Part shown: piece by piece, positions 3,407 to 16,905 of the stretch
Layout of the letters: the number at the start of each line of letters is the position of its first letter
Numbering within the stretch: the stretch's first letter is position 1
Origin: Colwelliaceae bacterium
GTDB taxonomy: Bacteria > Pseudomonadota > Gammaproteobacteria > Enterobacterales > Alteromonadaceae
Length of the DNA: 40,388 nucleotides
Assembly: GCA_023954655.1 (NCBI GenBank)
Contig: JAGSHH010000006.1
Location: forward strand, 1 to 40,388
Direction of reading: 5' to 3'
The notes under the pieces: generated by a model
Databases searched by the model: none
What the model saw: only the letters and a program-made list of their open reading frames with translations
What the model was told of the DNA's origin: nothing
Made by a program: the position numbers and the translations under genes

Positions 3407-4717
3407 TTATATTATTTTATGAATAACAGGTTGTATTTCAGGTTGAGAATCACTAAGAGTACACGCTTGTTCATATTGAATTTTTGCATTGTTTGCAGTG
3501 TTTTTATCATTAGCATGAACTCTTGCGATAACGTCACCTTTATTCACCAAAGTGCCTAAAGGTAAAATTCGATCAAAACCAACACTATGATCAATTTTCT
3601 GACCATTCGCTATTCGTCCACCTTTCATCCCTACAACAGCCATACCGATATCACGCGTTTGCATAGCGCTAATATAACCATGTTCTGAGGCAAGAACATC
3701 TTCAATAACACTAGCTTTAGTCATAGATTCCCACGGGTTATCGATAAAATCTGTAGGCCCTCCAAGTTCAGCAATCATCTGATTAAAGAGTTCAGCTGCT
3801 TTTCCTGATGTTAAAACATGGTCAATTTTTTCCATGGCACTTTCGTGACTATTAGCAATATTAGTGTTTATCAACATTGCACTTGCCAATTGACAAGTTA
3901 CTTGGTGAAGCCTAGGTTCTCGTTGTTTACCGGTTAAGTAATCAACGGTTTCTTTCATTTCAAGCGCATTACCTGCGGTTGAGCCTAGTACCTGATTCAT
4001 ATCAGTAATAATTGCTTGTGTATTTACACCTGCATCATTTGCAACATTCACAATAGATTTAGCAAGTGCTGTAGCATCATCAATATTTTGCATCATAGCG
4101 CCATTGCCAACTTTGACGTCCATGACTAAAGCGTCTAAACCTGCGGCTAGTTTTTTAGATAATATAGAAGCGGTGATCAACGGAATAGACTCAACTGTTG
4201 CAGTAACATCTCTTATGCCATATAAGCGTTTATCTGCCGGTGCTAAATTATCTGTTTGAGAAATAATTGCAACGCCTAACTCTTTAGTAATTCTTTTAAA
4301 GTCACTGATGGACGGTTGAACATTAAAACCATTTATACTTTCTAATTTATCTGAAGTACCACCTGTATGTCCTAAGCCCCTACCAGAAATCATTGGTACA
4401 TAGGCGCCACAACTGGCAACAATAGCAGCAAGCATAAAACTTACTTTATCACCAACACCACCAGTTGAATGTTTATCAACAACAGGCTTATCTAGTTCTG
4501 GCCATGAAATAACATCCCCAGAATTCATCATTGCGTGAGTTAACTGAACAATCTCTTCGGTATGCATGCCTTGTTGAAAAATAGCCATTGCCATTGAACC
4601 CACTTGAGCATCATTAAATTTTCCTGTGACTAAACCATCAACGAAGTTTAATATTTGTTGTTCACTTAATTTTTTTCCATCTCGTTTAGCACGAATAATT
4701 TCTTGTGGAATATACAT
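3407..4717 (-). CDS. deoA: Thymidine phosphorylase
   Basis: 436-aa ORF; DKHSTGGVGDKVS and GRGLGHTGGTSDKLESI signatures. Confidence 0.95.
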   Translation of the reverse strand: MYIPQEIIRAKRDGKKLSEQQILNFVDGLVTGKFNDAQVGSMAMAIFQQGMHTEEIVQLTHAMMNSGDVISWPELDKPVVDKHSTGGVGDKVSFMLAAIVASCGAYVPMISGRGLGHTGGTSDKLESINGFNVQPSISDFKRITKELGVAIISQTDNLAPADKRLYGIRDVTATVESIPLITASILSKKLAAGLDALVMDVKVGNGAMMQNIDDATALAKSIVNVANDAGVNTQAIITDMNQVLGSTAGNALEMKETVDYLTGKQREPRLHQVTCQLASAMLINTNIANSHESAMEKIDHVLTSGKAAELFNQMIAELGGPTDFIDNPWESMTKASVIEDVLASEHGYISAMQTRDIGMAVVGMKGGRIANGQKIDHSVGFDRILPLGTLVNKGDVIARVHANDKNTANNAKIQYEQACTLSDSQPEIQPVIHKII

Positions 4718-4731
4718 AATAAGCCTTTCTA

Positions 4732-5148
4732 TTATTTATTTCGGTTCAAATCTTTTGGTGTAAAAGCATTAGGTAAAAGTTCTTCTACAGTCCATGCTTT
4801 TGAGTTATCGAGATGATTCACAGCCATAACAATTGCTTGAGGTTCAAAAAATTCAACAATCACCTGACGACATGCTCCACAAGGTGGTGTTAGTTTTTCT
4901 TCTTCAGTATAAATAACAATTGTTTTAAATGACTGCTCACCTTGAATAACAGCTTGCGCGATACAGTTTCTTTCAGCACACACCGTTAGTCCATATGATG
5001 CATTTTCAACATTACAGCCACTCACTATATTATTATCTTTTGTTAAAGCTGCAGCTCCCACATGAAATTGACTGTAAGGTGCATACGCTTTATTAAAAGC
5101 CGCTTTAGCTTGTTGGCTTAATTGACTAAATTGTTCTTCACTTATCAT
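4732..5148 (-). CDS. cdd: Cytidine deaminase
   Basis: 138-aa ORF; zinc-site motifs NVENASYGLTVCAERNC and PPCGACRQ; 14 bp upstream of deoA, likely operon. Confidence 0.93.
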   Translation of the reverse strand: MISEEQFSQLSQQAKAAFNKAYAPYSQFHVGAAALTKDNNIVSGCNVENASYGLTVCAERNCIAQAVIQGEQSFKTIVIYTEEEKLTPPCGACRQVIVEFFEPQAIVMAVNHLDNSKAWTVEELLPNAFTPKDLNRNK

Positions 5149-5170: not shown

Positions 5171-5186
5171 CTAACCATATGGTCAA
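5171..5186. promoter_or_regulatory. Candidate RutR-like operator upstream of cdd-deoA
   Basis: CTAACCATATGGTCAA matches 12 of 14 specified positions of TTGACCAnnTGGTCAA; lies just upstream of the cdd start. Confidence 0.5.
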
Positions 5187-5231
5187 CTATATAATATTAA
5201 TCATGATGAGTATATGATTTACTGGAAATAA

Positions 5232-5258
5232 AAAAGCCGAGCATTAGCCCGGCTTTTA
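5232..5258 (-). terminator. Intrinsic terminator downstream of TonB-dependent receptor
   Basis: AAAAGCCGAGCATTAGCCCGGCTTTT: GC-rich stem with A/T flanks, just 3' of the minus-strand ORF. Confidence 0.8.
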
Positions 5259-5278
5259 TATTCAGTTAAATGAAAATT

Positions 5279-8200
5279 TTAGAACGTATATCTAACACCT
5301 ACACGCATTTCCCACAAAGAGGCATCATTGTATATTTCTTGCTCTTCATTACCTTCATTAAATTCTTCATAAACATATTGACCAGCATCATTCATACTCA
5401 TCTCAACCATACGGTTACCAACGAATTGACCTTGCTTCATCACACCCCAATCGTCGTTCAAAAAGTTTCCAACATTTTTGATGATAAAGAACGCGCTACC
5501 TTTTTGACCTTCGTATAAACCTGGGATTTCTTGGCTAATCTTTAAATCAAATTTAACATGCCAATCAGCATTTTGTGCGTTACGACCAACGGTTGCACCA
5601 CGAGCTAAACTTTCTGATTCAACAAAAGCATCAAATGCTGCTTTATCAAAGCCATCATCGTAAACTACGTTAGCATCATTTGCTGCTGGTACGTACAATA
5701 ACTGACGTGAACCATTCCAGTTTGAATCGCCCCACTCTCTGTCTGAACTATCAAACGTAAATGTATAAGGCTGACCTTCACTTGCTGAACCAAATAAGCT
5801 AAAACGCGTGTCTAAGTTATCAATAATTTGAGTAACATAGCTTAAGTTCAACGTAAAGCGATGAGGAACTTCATAGTTTGAGGTAGCCATTGGCGGCTGA
5901 TCAGGAATAGTAGTTGCGATATTACCGTAATTTGAACCAGCAACAGAACTCGTCATTGGGTTAGTATCATTTGATTCAGTGTAAGAATATGCAAATGTAG
6001 CACTTAAGCCAAAATCAAAATCTTTATTAACTGCGAAAGATAAGATTGTAGATTCGCCATCTTTATCACTGTTTGTTAATACAAAATCACCCGAACGCCA
6101 GCCTTCTTTATTTTCAAATAAAGGACGACCGTCGAAAGACTGTTCACCAGTACGTTGTAACGCATAGTCTTTAATGGTAGCTGTATTACGCTTTTTGTTA
6201 TGCAAGAAATCTAATGCAACAATTACATCGTTTTCAAATGTATAAGTAGCACCTAATGCATATTTCATTTCTGATGGAATTTCAAAATCAGGGTCAATAG
6301 CATTTACTGCACCATCACCACCACCTACAGGGTAGTTTTGAATTTCATCGTACATTGATTGTGGAATACCAAAACCAGGACCATCGCCATCTGTCATTGG
6401 GGTATTAAATAAATCAACCCCATTCTCACGAAGTCCAATTTGTACGATACCATCATTTGAATAAGCATTAGAAATCCAAACATTAGGGTTACCACCAGAA
6501 TATAGACCGAAACCACCGCGCAATTCTAAATTATCTTCAACAGCCCAATTAAATCCAACACGAGGTTGTAATAAGTTTTTATCGTCCATGTTGCCGTCAT
6601 TTGCAAAACCGTATCTATCAACAAAGTTTTGGTTATAACGAGGTTTGTCATCACTAGTGTACATGTCATATCGTAGACCAACCATTAGTGTCATATCAAT
6701 ATCAGTAAATGTATATTCATCTTGTATATACATTGTATGTTGCTGATATGAAAACTCTTGGCTTGCATCAGACGGAACGTTAGTGCCAGCAGAGTTATTA
6801 TAATAAACTCTATCGGCCATACCTGCTTCGAAATCATCAATTGATCTAAAACGGAATTCACCTTGAGTATGTTGCATAAACAAGTTGAATGCAGTTATAT
6901 CTTGGTATTCATAACCCGCAGTGATTGTATGTTCATCAAGGTAATAAGTACCTGAAAATCTAAAATCAAACGTTTCGGTACTCATTTCATTAGATTGACG
7001 AGAATCATCAGGTCCAATAAATATTGTAGAACCACCGTGACGAATTTGTACTTCACCAAAACCACTTGCTGCATCCAAAGAGTTTTGACGATTATCCAAC
7101 TCTGAGCGACTTATTCTCATTTCAGTAGAGAAATTATCTGTCCAATCGGAATAAAGTGAACCAATTAATGAATTAAACTCAGCACCAGACTCATAAAAAT
7201 GGCTATCTAATGTTAACGCCCATTCATCTGATTGATCTAATTTAAAACCATCATTGTAGTTATAAATTAAGCTAGCTCGATGATCATCATTTATATTCCA
7301 GTCTAATTTAACCAAAACTTTTTCATCATCTACTGGCATACTTCCCGGCATACCACCTGCATCATAACCATAAACATCACGAGTAATTTGAGTAATACGA
7401 TCTAAGTCTGCTTGACTGAAGTTGTCACCAAAAGGGTTATATTCAAAAAGCTGAACACCATCTAATTTTTCATATGAAACAAACATGAAAAGTTTATCTT
7501 CTAATAATGGGAAACCAACATTAAAGCCGTAACGCTTTTCGTCATAATCACCATTATCAATATCTTCACCTTCAATCGAATCACCTTTCATCGAATCGTT
7601 GGTGTAATCATAGAAGACGCTACCATGAACTTCATTGCCGCCTGATTTAGTTACAGCATTTACATTACATGAAGTGAAACCACCATATTTAACATCAAAA
7701 GGAGCTAATTCAACAGCAACCTGTTCTATTGAGTCGTAAGAGAATGGAATACGTGTTGTTGGATAACCATTACTATTCAACCCAAAGCTATCATTCATTC
7801 TAACGCCATCTAGCGTTAAACTATTAAAGCGCGGATTACCACCACCACATTGAATAGCACCTTCTCTACTTTCGTCGATATAAATTCGAGGATCTACTCG
7901 AACGATATCTTTAATATCACGATTAATTGCTGGAGCATTTTCTAAATCTTCCAAACCAAAATTAGCGGCAGGGCCAGTTCCACCAATATAACGGTTAATC
8001 GAACGTCCAGTAACAACAATAGTTTCTACCGACTTTTCATCTAAGCTAACGTTAACAGGAAATGTTTCACCTAAAGTAAGATAAATATCATTTACAGTTT
8101 TATCACTAAAAGTATCTGAATCAATAGTGACTTTATATGGACCGCCAACACGTAAACCTTTTGCGGTAAATAAACCCGCTTGGTTTACTACGGCAGTTTT

Positions 8201-8377
8201 GATAGTGCCAGAAGGTACATGTTCAATTGTAATAGCAGTGCCGGCAGCTGGATTACCTTGAGGTCCTTGAATTTGACCTTTAATAGCTGATGTAGTGGTA
8301 TTTGCTAAGGCTGAAGTTGATAATCCCAGTGCAAGTATAACTGCACCTGAAATTAACGAGAGGCGTTGGGTTTTCAT
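5279..8377 (-). CDS. TonB-dependent receptor with N-terminal carboxypeptidase-regulatory-like domain (Oar-like)
   Basis: 1032-aa ORF; signal peptide, Ig/CarboxypepD_reg-like N-terminus, plug (TLDGVRMNDSFGL), beta-barrel ending in ...RVGVRYTF. Confidence 0.9.
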   Translation of the reverse strand: MKTQRLSLISGAVILALGLSTSALANTTTSAIKGQIQGPQGNPAAGTAITIEHVPSGTIKTAVVNQAGLFTAKGLRVGGPYKVTIDSDTFSDKTVNDIYLTLGETFPVNVSLDEKSVETIVVTGRSINRYIGGTGPAANFGLEDLENAPAINRDIKDIVRVDPRIYIDESREGAIQCGGGNPRFNSLTLDGVRMNDSFGLNSNGYPTTRIPFSYDSIEQVAVELAPFDVKYGGFTSCNVNAVTKSGGNEVHGSVFYDYTNDSMKGDSIEGEDIDNGDYDEKRYGFNVGFPLLEDKLFMFVSYEKLDGVQLFEYNPFGDNFSQADLDRITQITRDVYGYDAGGMPGSMPVDDEKVLVKLDWNINDDHRASLIYNYNDGFKLDQSDEWALTLDSHFYESGAEFNSLIGSLYSDWTDNFSTEMRISRSELDNRQNSLDAASGFGEVQIRHGGSTIFIGPDDSRQSNEMSTETFDFRFSGTYYLDEHTITAGYEYQDITAFNLFMQHTQGEFRFRSIDDFEAGMADRVYYNNSAGTNVPSDASQEFSYQQHTMYIQDEYTFTDIDMTLMVGLRYDMYTSDDKPRYNQNFVDRYGFANDGNMDDKNLLQPRVGFNWAVEDNLELRGGFGLYSGGNPNVWISNAYSNDGIVQIGLRENGVDLFNTPMTDGDGPGFGIPQSMYDEIQNYPVGGGDGAVNAIDPDFEIPSEMKYALGATYTFENDVIVALDFLHNKKRNTATIKDYALQRTGEQSFDGRPLFENKEGWRSGDFVLTNSDKDGESTILSFAVNKDFDFGLSATFAYSYTESNDTNPMTSSVAGSNYGNIATTIPDQPPMATSNYEVPHRFTLNLSYVTQIIDNLDTRFSLFGSASEGQPYTFTFDSSDREWGDSNWNGSRQLLYVPAANDANVVYDDGFDKAAFDAFVESESLARGATVGRNAQNADWHVKFDLKISQEIPGLYEGQKGSAFFIIKNVGNFLNDDWGVMKQGQFVGNRMVEMSMNDAGQYVYEEFNEGNEEQEIYNDASLWEMRVGVRYTF

Positions 8378-8697
8378 CGTTTATTGTTCCCTTGGTGTAT
8401 GTTTTATTTTTATAGTGTGACTTACGTCAATTCAATCATAGTCAAAATAATAACAAATGCTTTTTTTGTCTTTTATTTGTCTTAATTAGACCAGACAATT
8501 CTTACATTTTTATTACAATATTTCACAACAGATTAAAACACAAGTTTAAAAATTTAATGCGTTAATACTGAAAACACAAATAAAACCATTTAATCAATAT
8601 AATACAAAGAGTTAAAATAAAAGCATGAAATAACAAAATTATAAAAAAACTTTAATTATTACAAAAACCATTTAAACAAATACTCTTTACCAAAAAA

Positions 8698-8713
8698 AAG
8701 ACCACGTGGTCAA
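8698..8713. promoter_or_regulatory. Candidate RutR-like operator in the receptor/TetR divergent intergenic region
   Basis: AAGACCACGTGGTCAA contains the perfect 12-bp palindrome GACCACGTGGTC; 12 of 14 matches to TTGACCAnnTGGTCAA. Confidence 0.5.
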
Positions 8714-9082
8714 GTTTATATATTTAACAAACAGAACCACTAAAAACAAAGGCTATAACAAAAGGTATTTTAACAACCAAAGAATCAAGAAATATAAAAT
8801 AAAAAAACCAACAAACAAGATAACACTAATTTTTATCTCCTAAACAATAAAATAGTTATCAACCAGTTATATAAGGTAATAAACATTAGAAAAATGAATG
8901 CGATAACATTAAATACTCACTTAATTTCTCTTAATATATATTATTCTCAACTTAATAAAAAAACACATTCCTGACCAATAGAACAATAAATGATAGACAA
9001 ATTAGTGACATTTATACCGCATACTGCTAAAAAGACACTCCCAGTATACTTTTTAAAAACTTTATAAATAAAAAGATCAAAA

Positions 9083-9703
9083 ATGACTGACAAAAAACAA
9101 GGTAAAATAAGAATACAAAGCCAAGAAAAAATTCTACTTGCAGCACAAGATGAATTCATTACTAATGGCTATAAAGGCGCAACAGTTCAATCAATCGCTG
9201 ATCTTGCAGGATTACCAAAAGCCAATGTTCTCTATTACTTTAAAAACAAAGAAAATATCTACCATGCAGTATTAGAACAAACATTAGATATGTGGGATCA
9301 AGGTATTGGCGATATTGAATATAAAGATGGTCCAAAAATCGCAATTGAAAAATTTGTCTCCTCTAAAGTTCTAATGTCTTTCAATCATCCAAAATCTTCA
9401 AAAATATATGCGATGGAGATTATTCAGGGCGCTCAGCATTTAAAAGAGTTTACTCGAACATATTTAAGAAAATGGGTTCGAGAAAAATCTAAAATATTCC
9501 AACAATGGATCGACGAAGATAGAATGCTCAATGTTGATCCTATTAACCTAATTTTTCTCATTTGGTCTTCTACCCAACATTATGCTGATTTTGATAATCA
9601 GATTTTAACTGTCATGAATCGAGCTGATTATGAAGAAGAAGACATTGAACATGTTACTCAATTTCTCACTCAATTTATTTTACGTGGCTTAGAGATTAAA
9701 TAG
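9083..9703 (+). CDS. TetR/AcrR-family regulator, RutR-like
   Basis: 206-aa ORF; TetR HTH plus C-terminal motifs shared with E. coli RutR (KANVLYYFKNKENIYHAVLEQTLDMW; FLIWSSTQHYADF). Confidence 0.85.
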   Translation: MTDKKQGKIRIQSQEKILLAAQDEFITNGYKGATVQSIADLAGLPKANVLYYFKNKENIYHAVLEQTLDMWDQGIGDIEYKDGPKIAIEKFVSSKVLMSFNHPKSSKIYAMEIIQGAQHLKEFTRTYLRKWVREKSKIFQQWIDEDRMLNVDPINLIFLIWSSTQHYADFDNQILTVMNRADYEEEDIEHVTQFLTQFILRGLEIK

Positions 9704-9706
9704 TTT

Positions 9707-10894
9707 ATGAAATTTTTTATTGTTTTATTTTTATCAACACTTGGGCTTAATGTTATGGCAGAAAACAAACAGCAAGATAACCCAATAAGAATAGCTACCT
9801 TTAATGTCAGTATGGAAGCACTAAACTATACGACTAGAAGTAAAGGAAAACCATCAAAAGTAACAGGTAACGAGCTGAACAAAGCACTTAAAAGTAATCA
9901 TCAACAAATTAAGAATATTGCTGAAATTATTCAACGAGTTAATCCTGACATTATTCTGCTCAATGAATTTGACTATTCAAGAGGTGGTAAAGAAATTCAG
10001 CTATTTATTAATCAATACTTGAATGAAGAGCAACAAGGGCAAAATAAAGTATACTTTCCTTACTTTTATCAAAGTAGTGTTAATACAGGAGTGCCTACTC
10101 CCTTTGATTTAAATAATGACAATAAAATTGAATCTCCAACTGATACCTATGGTTTTGGTCACTTCCCAGGTCATTTTGGTATGGTATTACTATCAAAGTT
10201 TCCCATTGATACCGAGCAGATTAGAACATTTCAACATTTTAAATGGAATGATATGCCTGGAGCACTGCAACCCTATGATCCTTCTACTAATAAACCTTGG
10301 TATAGTGATGCTGCTTGGCAGGGTTTACGCTTATCTTCAAAATCGCATTGGGATATCCCAATTACCGTCAATGGTAAAAACATACATATATTAGCTAGTC
10401 ACCCTACTCCACCAGTTTTCGATGGTCCAGAAGATAGAAACGGCAAACGAAATCATGATGAAATTCGTTTTTGGGGAGATTATATTTCAGCCCAAAATAA
10501 CCAATATATTTATGATGATAATAAACAATTAGGTGGGTTAAAAGCGAATGCTCCTTTTGTAATACTTGGTGACTTAAATGCTTCTGCAACTGAAGGTGAT
10601 GCTATAAATTCAAGTATAGAATCACTTATCAACCATGAAAAGATTCAAGATCCAATGCCTAAAAGCATTGGAGCCAAAAACCACAGTAGCGATAATCCTC
10701 TCGCAGAACATCATACTGCTTATTGGCGAATGAGAGCCGATTATGTTCTCCCATCAAAACAACATTTCACTCTCATTGATTCAGGTGTTTTCTGGCCTGA
10801 AAAAAATACAGATGAATTTCGATTAATTAAAGATCGTCAAGCATCATCAGACCATCGCCTTGTATGGGTTGATGTGAAAATAACTCAGAAGTAA
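9707..10894 (+). CDS. Secreted endonuclease/exonuclease/phosphatase (EEP) superfamily protein
   Basis: 395-aa ORF; signal peptide, RIATFNVS, LLNEFD, ILGDLNAS, SSDHRLVWVDV motifs; starts 3 bp after the TetR stop. Confidence 0.88.
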   Translation: MKFFIVLFLSTLGLNVMAENKQQDNPIRIATFNVSMEALNYTTRSKGKPSKVTGNELNKALKSNHQQIKNIAEIIQRVNPDIILLNEFDYSRGGKEIQLFINQYLNEEQQGQNKVYFPYFYQSSVNTGVPTPFDLNNDNKIESPTDTYGFGHFPGHFGMVLLSKFPIDTEQIRTFQHFKWNDMPGALQPYDPSTNKPWYSDAAWQGLRLSSKSHWDIPITVNGKNIHILASHPTPPVFDGPEDRNGKRNHDEIRFWGDYISAQNNQYIYDDNKQLGGLKANAPFVILGDLNASATEGDAINSSIESLINHEKIQDPMPKSIGAKNHSSDNPLAEHHTAYWRMRADYVLPSKQHFTLIDSGVFWPEKNTDEFRLIKDRQASSDHRLVWVDVKITQK

Positions 10895-10923: not shown

Positions 10924-12309
10924 ATGAAAAAGATTTTACCAACATTAATCGTTTCAGCGTTACTAACAAGTTGTAATAGCACTCAAATTCAAATTGATGA
11001 AACACCAGCAAAACCTAATGTAAAAAATATCATTATGATAATTGCAGATGGGATGGGGCCTGCTTATACCAGTGCCTATCGATATTATGCTGATGATCCC
11101 AAAACTGAAGAAATTGAAACAACTATTTTTGATAAGTATTTAGTTGGAAGTTCTACTACATACCCCGCATCAGTTTCAGGCTATGTAACAGACTCTGCAG
11201 CTTCTGCAACAGCACTAGCTAGTGGCATTAAAACCTATAATGGTGCTATTGGAGTAGATACAAATAAAAACAAATTAGAAACGGTATTACACCGTGCAAA
11301 GAAACTTGGTAAAAAAACTGGGGTAGTTGTTACATCACAAGTGAATCATGCAACTCCTGCTTCTTATATTAGTCACAATGAATACAGAAGAAATTATAAT
11401 GAACTTGCCGATAGTTATATTGATAATGGTATAAATACCGATGTACTTTTAGGTGGAGGTTGGAAGTATTTTATTCGTAAAGACAGAAACTTAGTCAATG
11501 AATATAAAGCACAGAGTGTACATTACATCGATTCGTATCAAGAATTAAATAACTTGCCAAAGAATAAAGCAATTCTTGGCTTATTTGCCGATGAAGGTTT
11601 AGTAGAAGCTATCGATGATGTTGATAAATATCGTTTATCTACAATGACAAAAGCAGCAATACCTCAACTTGAAAATTCAAAAGGTTTTTTCATGTTAATT
11701 GAAGCAAGTCAAATAGATTGGGCTGGTCATGGCAATGATATCAATTCAGCAATGGCAGAGATGACAGATCTAGAGAAAACATTGGAGTACCTTGAAGTAT
11801 TTGTTGAGAAAAATCCAGATACTTTAGTTGTTCTAACAGCGGACCATAGCACTGGTGGTTTAACGGTTGCTGCTAACGGAATTTATGAATGGAAACCCCA
11901 ATTAATTAGAGATTTACAGCAATCATCTAATTCAATAGCAAAATACTTTAATAAGCATGAGTTGTCTCCTTCAGCTTTATCTGAAAAGTTAGCAGGCATA
12001 GAAGTATCAAAAATTGAAGCTGACAATATAGCGTCAATAAAAACGATAGCGAAAAAGAAACTATCTACTTATTTATCTTTATCTCAAGAACAGAAAAAAG
12101 GGCAATATAAACCGAACGTGATTAAAGAAATCAATATCGCTATTAAGAAACTCATAGATAAAAAAACAAATACCGGATGGACGAGTGGTGGTCACACCGC
12201 AATTGATGTACCAGTATTTGCATTTGGCACAGAAAAGCATCGTTTTTCAGGGGCTATTGATAACACAGATATTGCGAAAACCATTTTCAAATTATTAGAA
12301 GAAAAATAA
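10924..12309 (+). CDS. Alkaline phosphatase (PhoA-type), predicted lipoprotein
   Basis: 461-aa ORF; lipobox SALLTSC, IIADGMGP, VTDSAASATALASG, LTADHSTGG; 29-bp gap to the EEP gene. Confidence 0.9.
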   Translation: MKKILPTLIVSALLTSCNSTQIQIDETPAKPNVKNIIMIIADGMGPAYTSAYRYYADDPKTEEIETTIFDKYLVGSSTTYPASVSGYVTDSAASATALASGIKTYNGAIGVDTNKNKLETVLHRAKKLGKKTGVVVTSQVNHATPASYISHNEYRRNYNELADSYIDNGINTDVLLGGGWKYFIRKDRNLVNEYKAQSVHYIDSYQELNNLPKNKAILGLFADEGLVEAIDDVDKYRLSTMTKAAIPQLENSKGFFMLIEASQIDWAGHGNDINSAMAEMTDLEKTLEYLEVFVEKNPDTLVVLTADHSTGGLTVAANGIYEWKPQLIRDLQQSSNSIAKYFNKHELSPSALSEKLAGIEVSKIEADNIASIKTIAKKKLSTYLSLSQEQKKGQYKPNVIKEINIAIKKLIDKKTNTGWTSGGHTAIDVPVFAFGTEKHRFSGAIDNTDIAKTIFKLLEEK

Positions 12310-13474: not shown

Positions 13475-16400
13475 CTAAAAACGATATGAAGCATTTAGGA
13501 AATAGCCTCGTCCTAAAAGATCATAACCTGAAGATGTCACCATATTACCTCGGTTAGAACCAGCAGATATATCTACCATATCTGGTTCTTTATCAAGTAA
13601 GTTTGTAATCCCGAATGTTACTGCAAAATCTTCCGCACTATATGTTAATGAAGTATCAACATAAATTGCAGCATCAGCATCACAAACAGGAACAGTCAAA
13701 GGTTTTCCAACTAACTCTTCATTGATAATAAAGTTATCACAGTTTGCGGTATCACGAACATCATCAGCAGCGTGTGTTTCAGAGAAATAATTAGCCATAA
13801 CCATTAAATTCCAATCGCCACTAACAAAGTTAAAGGTTGAAATCAAACGATGCTCAGGTGTCCCAAAATCTTCTAATAGGTCTTCAGATTCTTCTCCTTT
13901 GAAGATAGTTAACTCACGTTCAGTTTGAAGTGTATATTGGTTAGTCCATACCATATGAACAGGCATACCTAATACATCACCTAAGCCAGTAGAAAAATGT
14001 GTATTAACATCTATCCCCTTTGAAGTTTCTTCACCAATATTTAAAAATGAATTATCAACTAAGTTAGGAAAGTTAATTACTGCGGCATTCCCGCTATCTC
14101 GTCTGATTCTAGGACAGAAAGGACTATCCATGTTAGGGGCATCAAAACAACGTTTTAAAATTGTTGCTGCACTTACCGTACGAATAGTATCTTCAACTTC
14201 TAAACTCCAGTAAGTAATCCCCAAATCAAACTCATAATCGCCATCTAACTCTGGCGTCCATTTGAATGATGCAGTAATATTTTCAGAAGTTTCTGGTTTA
14301 AGATCTTTTGCATTACCACTTGCTGAAGTTGGAATCGTTGGTACGCCACTTAAACCAATTTGAGTATAATCCGCACCTTGAGCTGTACAGTTATCTAAAA
14401 TAGTTTGTGAACGGTTCTCTTTACTCGGATCATATGCACTGTTGGTTTGTAATGCTTCGGGGACAGAACAAGGATCAGCACTACCACTTACACCACCAAA
14501 TTGATTAGCAAGAAATTGCTCACGTAAGTTAGGTGCACGAAATGATGTTCCGTAAGATGTACTAAATAGTAATGATTCAGTTGGTTTATACGTTACTCGT
14601 GCACGGTTTGTTAATTCACTGCCAAAATTTTCTTCATCGGTATAACGAACAGCTGCTTCAACTTCAAATAGTTCCGCCCAGCTTTGATCAACAGCTATAG
14701 GTAATGATATTTCAGCAAATACGTCAGAAACATCACGAGAACCAATAGTCGCACCTTCTGTCAAAGGGTTTTCTGCGGCAACTAAACCAGTTGCACCTAA
14801 CATATCCCCTGCTGATTTAATACGATCACGTCTAAATTCAGCTCCAATTGCAGCAGTAACGACACCACCATCATCGAAATCGAATAAATCACCAGTGGCA
14901 AATGCAGAAGCCATAATTTGTTCTACAGTAGTTGTATTTACTCGAGTACCAATAAGGAAGTCTTTTTCAGCTTGTGTTGCAAAAGTTCCTCCACCATATT
15001 CACCACCATTAAATATTGATGGGGCTAAAAAGTTAACAGGCACACATTCATTGGGGGTTATAAAACCAATTCCTGCAGGTGCATTGACACCACATATTGG
15101 GTTGCCATTATTGTCTAATCGCAATGTACCTAAAGTAAGTGCCAAATTAGACTCATTCATAATAGGTTGAGTTTGTTCACCTACACCACGATCGTACGAA
15201 GCAAATAGCTCATAAGTCCATCCTTTATCTGACAAGACATCACTAGTGAAGTCGCCTCGTAATCCTGTTACAAATCTAAAATGATTTAACTCAACTTCAC
15301 GTTTTTGTTGTAAATCTTCCAATGTAATTATATTTGATACATCAACAGGAAAAGGGCTTAAAGGATTTTGTACTAGATCTAAGTTACCATCTGCATCTAG
15401 AACTAAATTACCTTGTTCATTTTCATGAGGGATCATTCCAGGAATCGTTGGGTAAATTTGTTCAGAAGATGCCAAACTAGTTAAATGACGATGAAAATAA
15501 TAAGCTTCATAAAAAATTTCTTCATCTCCACCCCAGAAATCAGGCATGTATGAGCCATTAGCCGCAACAGAAAAACGAGTTACCGGTTGTACTAAATCCG
15601 CTTGCATCCTATCTACAGCATCACTATGCAATGGAGAGAATATACGACGATTACGTTGATTTGCACTAGTGATCTCTACATTAGGATCACTCGGAATAGG
15701 TAAACCATATGCCGAACTAAAATCCATGATGCCAATATCTGTTTGACCTGGTGTTGAGAATATTGCTATGTCGCCTGTAGTATTAGCATTTACTGTACCG
15801 GTTAGATCTAACATGGTGTTATCCCAAAACCTACTGGTACAAACTGACGTTTTTTTACCAGAATCATCTCTGAAAATCTTACGAATACAATCGGTACGAT
15901 CTTTTACCGCAACGCGTTCTCGTTCATAATATGATGCAGAAAAAGCAAATTTCGCCTTATCTCCTTCAAAGCCTGTAATAAATGAAAAATCTTTTTCACT
16001 ACCTCCACCTTCAGCCGTATCAGAAACTGCAGCTGAAACTTCAAAACCATCATAACTTTCTTTTAAAATAACGTTGATAACGCCAGCAACAGCATCAGCA
16101 CCATAAATTGATGATGCACCCTCAGTAATAACTTCAACACGTTCAACCATATTAACTGGTAATAAACTTAAATCAGGCTGAGATGGAGCACCACGTACAC
16201 CTGAAGCACCTAATCGGCGACCATTAATCAAAATTAATGTACGTTCGGCGCCTAAACCACGAAGACCAACATTAGATGAACCAACACCACCACTTGGAGG
16301 TGGCTCAGAGGCATTTGAATTACCTGAGTTTGAGTTAAAAGAAGCATCAAACTGCTGACCATTAGCCATTGATGTATTTTGTAGTAGCTCCGCAACGGTT

Positions 16401-16618
16401 CGAATTCCTGATTTTAAAGCATCTTCAGCTTTAATTACATGGATAGGAGCTGCATTTGAAAACTCTGCTTTTTTGATTCGTGAACCAGTTACCGCAATTC
16501 TTTCAACTTCTTCTTCCGCAGTTTCTTCAGAAAATACAGGGGTCGAAAAAAACGAAGCAGATACACTAGTAACTAAAGCAATTTTGATAGCTTTAGAAAG
16601 TTTGGATGACTTAATCAT
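13475..16618 (-). CDS. TonB-dependent receptor
   Basis: Start reassigned from 16657 to the Met at 16618 (MIKSSKLSKAIKIALVTSVSASFFSTPVFS) with AGGAAA upstream; TonB-box/plug VERIAVTGSRI..., INGRRLG, C-terminal aromatic ASYRF. Confidence 0.9.
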   Translation of the reverse strand: MIKSSKLSKAIKIALVTSVSASFFSTPVFSEETAEEEVERIAVTGSRIKKAEFSNAAPIHVIKAEDALKSGIRTVAELLQNTSMANGQQFDASFNSNSGNSNASEPPPSGGVGSSNVGLRGLGAERTLILINGRRLGASGVRGAPSQPDLSLLPVNMVERVEVITEGASSIYGADAVAGVINVILKESYDGFEVSAAVSDTAEGGGSEKDFSFITGFEGDKAKFAFSASYYERERVAVKDRTDCIRKIFRDDSGKKTSVCTSRFWDNTMLDLTGTVNANTTGDIAIFSTPGQTDIGIMDFSSAYGLPIPSDPNVEITSANQRNRRIFSPLHSDAVDRMQADLVQPVTRFSVAANGSYMPDFWGGDEEIFYEAYYFHRHLTSLASSEQIYPTIPGMIPHENEQGNLVLDADGNLDLVQNPLSPFPVDVSNIITLEDLQQKREVELNHFRFVTGLRGDFTSDVLSDKGWTYELFASYDRGVGEQTQPIMNESNLALTLGTLRLDNNGNPICGVNAPAGIGFITPNECVPVNFLAPSIFNGGEYGGGTFATQAEKDFLIGTRVNTTTVEQIMASAFATGDLFDFDDGGVVTAAIGAEFRRDRIKSAGDMLGATGLVAAENPLTEGATIGSRDVSDVFAEISLPIAVDQSWAELFEVEAAVRYTDEENFGSELTNRARVTYKPTESLLFSTSYGTSFRAPNLREQFLANQFGGVSGSADPCSVPEALQTNSAYDPSKENRSQTILDNCTAQGADYTQIGLSGVPTIPTSASGNAKDLKPETSENITASFKWTPELDGDYEFDLGITYWSLEVEDTIRTVSAATILKRCFDAPNMDSPFCPRIRRDSGNAAVINFPNLVDNSFLNIGEETSKGIDVNTHFSTGLGDVLGMPVHMVWTNQYTLQTERELTIFKGEESEDLLEDFGTPEHRLISTFNFVSGDWNLMVMANYFSETHAADDVRDTANCDNFIINEELVGKPLTVPVCDADAAIYVDTSLTYSAEDFAVTFGITNLLDKEPDMVDISAGSNRGNMVTSSGYDLLGRGYFLNASYRF

Positions 16619-16905
16619 GTTTATTTCCTCATTATTTATTATAATTTGACTACTCAATTTCCATTTAATAAGCTTGAACTCAACTACAAATATTCCTTTT
16701 ATTTATCTAGTCAAACTTACAGTAGACTTTTCTAGACTACGTTTTAGAGTCACAAAATAAAATCAATTCCGGCAATCAAAATTGTTACAAACTTTTAACT
16801 TGTAAACTATTTTTCACAATATTATTAACAGAAAGTTAACGTCTTGACTGGTAACAATAGATTTAAATACTAAGGGTTTAGTAGTCATTTATTACTTATC
16901 CCTTG

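Follow-up and report, generated by a model that had tools for sequence, protein, structure and literature searches.

A RutR-like regulator predicted to govern nucleic-acid and nucleoside scavenging in Colwelliaceae, at a locus with a variable TonB-type receptor

Comparative analysis of a 40,388-nucleotide stretch of DNA from a Colwelliaceae bacterium (GCA_023954655.1, contig JAGSHH010000006.1; hereafter the window) indicated that a TetR-family gene in it very likely encodes a repressor of the RutR subfamily that acts on nucleic-acid and nucleoside scavenging, probably freed from its operators by a base that DeoA and Cdd release. The window corresponds to one of the 220 contigs of a 3.0-Mb genome whose estimated completeness is 81%. 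In it deoA, cdd and a TonB-type receptor gene lie in this order on one strand, and tetR, a nuclease-family gene and a phosphatase gene follow on the other (Table 1). The full order is kept in 27 of the 35 relatives compared (three of the 27 have a second receptor copy, and some of the other relatives are short contigs) and in most named loci, and the locus is syntenic throughout the Colwelliaceae. Among named records, the closest carriers of the regulator belong to Colwellia and Thalassotalea. The tetR and nuclease genes of Colwellia maritima MSW7 (L299) each appear split in two, through sequencing error or decay.

Table 1. Coordinates of genes and predicted regulatory features in the window
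Feature	Position	Strand	Remarks
deoA, thymidine phosphorylase	3407..4717	-	
cdd, cytidine deaminase	4732..5148	-	
Operator 1, CTAACCATATGGTCAA	5171..5186		Between cdd and the receptor stop codon, 23 bp 5' of the cdd start
Terminator-like hairpin	5232..5257	-	Between the receptor unit and cdd-deoA
TonB-type outer-membrane receptor	5279..8377	-	CarboxypepD_reg, weak plug, OMP_b-brl_4; alleles swapped in relatives
Conserved block, ATTAGACCAGACAATTCTTACATTTTTATTACA	8485..8517	n/a	5' of the receptor
Operator 2, AAGACCACGTGGTCAA	8698..8713		Divergent receptor/tetR region; about 320 bp to the receptor start, about 370 bp to tetR
Degenerate third box, TGACCAATAGAACA	8972..8985		About 100 bp 5' of tetR
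tetR, RutR-subfamily TetR regulator	9083..9703	+	206 aa; TetR_C_3
Endonuclease/exonuclease/phosphatase-family protein	9707..10894	+	PF03372; signal-peptide-like N-terminus; 3 bp past tetR
Alkaline phosphatase family protein	10924..12309	+	PF00245; lipoprotein-like signal (LTSC)

Operators and their conservation

The two boxes reported in the first-pass annotation are both present, each agreeing with TTGACCANNTGGTCAA at 12 of 14 specified positions (two mismatches), and operator 1 does stand upstream of cdd, close to its start codon. Taken by itself the window would allow these to be chance near-matches: three matches with three or fewer mismatches were observed and 2.4 are expected in shuffles, and we rejected significance from the 40-kb window alone. 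The operators are significant because of comparative data. When the window was scored with a matrix built purely from the cdd boxes of other genomes, the two operators ranked first and second (20.6 and 16.5), and the third-best site scored 8.1.

Conservation in orthologous promoters had been set beforehand as the refuting test of the proposed regulon, and the boxes proved to be conserved, with most of about 35 related loci carrying them at orthologous positions. Of 28 loci, 14 have a perfect cdd box and 23 a cdd box with at most one mismatch, compared with none in 100 shuffles; the one-mismatch limit also holds for the cdd box in 46 of 52 named loci. The box between receptor and tetR is the weaker of the two, with at most one mismatch in 14 of 35 loci and at most two in 28 of 35 (shuffles, 0.01 and 0.29). 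The half-site TGACCA came out on top of 180 permuted half-sites in both regions, with 23 loci in the cdd region and 3 for the runner-up. Counts of palindromes found de novo exceed those of AT-rich shuffles in the cdd regions; the receptor/tetR regions gave no excess over such shuffles. The closest relatives of the window have less symmetrical boxes (TAACCA..TGGTCA). Conservation and co-occurrence with the regulator, described below, refute chance resemblance for operator 1, and support is weaker at operator 2; with the matrix ranks and the number of perfect sites in carrier genomes also speaking against it, we consider coincidence extremely improbable.

The positions of the boxes suggest how they might be used. 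Operator 1 is predicted to control cdd-deoA, which needs an operator of its own because a terminator-like hairpin lies 3' of the receptor gene; as this hairpin falls between operator 1 and the receptor gene, the two boxes would serve two transcription units. Operator 2 is more than 320 bp from both of its neighbouring genes, and which promoter it controls is thus uncertain. Across relatives, boxes recur at two places in the receptor/tetR region. One is 300-400 bp away from the receptor; the other, at a distance of about 100-150 bp from tetR, corresponds to the degenerate third box of the window, and relatives carry stronger boxes there. The box near tetR probably serves autoregulation.

Regulon content and the regulator

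Perfect TGACCANNTGGTCA sites, summed from per-genome counts, numbered 68 in 35 genomes carrying the regulator versus 9 for a reversed control, and 10 in 20 genomes without it versus 9, which is no enrichment. In the genome of the window, a pattern scan at one mismatch found no excess (75 matches, 91 for the reversed control). Twenty-eight of its one-mismatch matches outside the two boxes were inspected; 25 fall inside open reading frames, and the informative one, upstream of deoB, had come up earlier in the blind scan for the pattern. This site, ACTTGACTAATTGGTCATGA, lies between udk and deoB next to a nupC-type transporter gene. Its contig (C116, L175) carries a second nucleoside cluster bearing the same box, in which the transporter gene, udk and deoB are grouped with genes for another TonB receptor, for a nucleoside phosphorylase and for adenosine deaminase.

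A deoB/udk box with at most one mismatch occurs in 22 of 25 carriers and 0 of 4 non-carriers. Likewise, the cdd-deoA box is absent from 17 of 19 loci in genomes without the regulator, and the two exceptions are genomes that are 84-85% complete. Further sites in relatives lie upstream of or inside add, and upstream of the glucose-6-phosphate isomerase gene (pgi), a secreted endonuclease I fusion and another nuclease-family protein. The adenosine deaminase genes of three relatives contain a perfect box at the same relative position, about 700 bp past the gene start (L148 6753, L149 6342, L164 6954). The proposal that regulator, receptor and salvage genes form a single regulon is supported by the conserved boxes, by enrichment in carriers only, by co-occurrence of the cdd and deoB/udk boxes with the regulator, and by a base-contact lysine and most of a uracil pocket kept in the regulator itself; the regulon predicted here is larger than that set. 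Its content points to nucleic-acid and nucleoside scavenging and not to pyrimidine-ring degradation, genes for which were not found at the locus.

Some of these sites might belong to other proteins. Paralogous TetRs adjoin similar boxes in some relatives, so a share of the sites counted in carriers may be theirs, and the adjoining TetR could on this account be a bystander to boxes owned by another RutR-like regulator. We regard such a bystander role as very improbable, since the regulator is the only full-length homologue found in its own genome (81% complete), box presence tracks presence of the TetR, and genomes missing it show no enrichment of perfect sites. In L303 and L304, a box-like site separates a paralogous RutR-like TetR gene from the divergent gene for glucose-6-phosphate isomerase, which suggests a related regulator for sugar-phosphate flux.

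The TetR protein belongs to the regulators with a YcdC-like C-terminal region (PF08362), with scores of 148.4 bits for TetR_C_3 (cut-off 25) and 39.1 for TetR_N (cut-off 24). Its closest solved relative by sequence is RutR in a structure with uracil bound (E 1.4e-35), and the closest by fold is RutR 4jyk (TM 0.79/0.83, from a predicted model with pLDDT 81). The reported hallmark IWSSTQHYADF was found; its counterpart in E. coli RutR is IWASTQHYADF. RutR contacts uracil through W77, Y97 via water, W167, Q171 and Q179', and DNA through K52 and K62 (PMC10891134). In RutR numbering, K52, K62, W77, Q171 and Q179 are conserved in all 36 orthologues, and W167 is kept except for F in 2 of 36. Y97 is replaced in every one, by F in 33 of them and by I in the other 3; the window's protein has F and retains the other four of the five uracil-site residues. 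The description of this protein as RutR-like holds for the operator type, TTGACCANNTGGTCAA, which sequence comparison finds shared with RutR, but it scores below the curated cut-offs of the RutR models (161.5 against 368 and 138.8 against 230; TIGR03613 / PRK15008) and groups apart: in a midpoint-rooted tree with a long RutR branch, E. coli RutR pairs with L169, a true RutR-like protein in one relative (support 100/100), away from the clade of the window. We interpret the TetR as RutR-like in its predicted working, yet not a RutR equivalog.

We envisage a TetR dimer that would bind TTGACCANNTGGTCAA-type operators directly, 5' of cdd-deoA, in the receptor/tetR region and between udk and deoB, and weakly also close to tetR, acting as a repressor rather than an activator. 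When nucleic acids become available, secreted nucleases and the phosphatase would yield nucleotides and nucleosides, and the TonB-type receptor might import these or nucleic-acid fragments. Cdd and DeoA would then release uracil and thymine, and the free base could fill the pocket (W71, W161, Q165 and Q173) and release the repressor. The inducer is probably the base released by DeoA. A less likely possibility is that the TetR binds the same boxes but responds to another product of nucleic-acid breakdown, which might be a nucleoside, a purine base or a sugar phosphate. In its favour, replacement of Y97 by F could alter which ligand is bound, purine and sugar-phosphate metabolism is represented among the candidate targets (add, deoB, pgi), and a dihydropyrimidinase query matched in 3 of 34 carriers, with the other 31 and the genome of the window giving no match. 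Against it, the uracil site retains its two stacking tryptophans and its two glutamines.

Exchange of the receptor gene

The barrel of the receptor is assigned to OMP_b-brl_4 with 156.8 bits (cut-off 30), and its plug scores 20.9, below the cut-off of 23.9. A sequence search of solved structures returned no resembling entry for the receptor or for the nuclease-family protein. Across relatives, the identities of receptor and TetR show no correlation (r -0.03), whereas those of the nuclease, phosphatase, deoA and cdd follow TetR identity, with values of 0.54-0.61. The clearest case is L066 and L067, where flanks are 99.3-99.5% identical over 16 kb, receptors are about 38% identical, and the breakpoints fall at the ends of the receptor coding sequence. 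The pattern recurs in L269/L271, L251/L295 and L243/L247, with neighbouring genes at 94-98% and receptors at 38-48%. Another TonB receptor, encoded at 13475-16657 of the window, has 77-79% identity in L063-L065, compared with 35-42% for the swapped receptor in the same relatives. The receptors fall into nine classes scattered through the family, which change 28 times on the tree of neighbouring genes versus a shuffled mean of 33.9 (minimum 28).

It appears about equally likely as not that these patterns reflect a RutR-type repressor redirected to DNA and nucleoside scavenging, with operators and enzymes fixed and the receptor replaced gene-for-gene by deep interspecies alleles. Receptor copies occur in tandem in three relatives (L072, L084 and L088), and recombination between such copies, or loss of one, is an alternative to interspecies transfer. 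Were gene-for-gene replacement true, it would fit selection by phages or bacteriocins, or by changing substrates, against receptor types that have become common. The block upstream of the receptor is kept in close relatives despite the swapped receptor, and it is probably an element of the receptor promoter. A role as a general TonB-receptor promoter is unsupported, the block being unique in its own genome.

Relation to known systems

The nearest known system is RutR of E. coli, a uracil-responsive TetR-family regulator of rutA-G, with which the window's TetR shares fold, K52, K62, W77/W167/Q171/Q179 and operator type. It differs in being 34% identical and below the equivalog cut-off, in having F at Y97, and in its predicted targets, which concern nucleoside and nucleic-acid scavenging, with no adjoining rut genes; it may be a relative of RutR that has taken on another metabolic role. 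In E. coli, cdd, deoA, deoB and nucleoside uptake are controlled by CytR and DeoR, which belong to the LacI and DeoR families, use other operators and involve no TonB-type receptor. A comparative study predicted RutR regulons for 13 groups of Proteobacteria, 68 genomes in all, at 10.9 genes per genome and with taxon-specific motif changes (PMC5343134). The main text of that study does not include this locus, its receptor, or deoB, udk and nuclease targets; part of the regulon may already be listed in its supplement or in RegPrecise.

A literature search on this regulon found nothing specific to it. The analysis names a regulator, operators and targets with which one can test how common marine bacteria turn on the use of dissolved DNA and nucleosides as sources of phosphorus, nitrogen and carbon. 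The variable receptor recalls the ferripyoverdine receptor (FpvA) of Pseudomonas, a TonB receptor whose locus is conserved while the receptor itself exists as deep allele classes. Here, in contrast, the locus is one of predicted nucleoside scavenging, and exchange is limited to the coding sequence while regulator, operators and enzymes stay constant, such that near-identical loci differing in the receptor alone offer a natural experiment for substrate range and for sensitivity to phages and bacteriocins.
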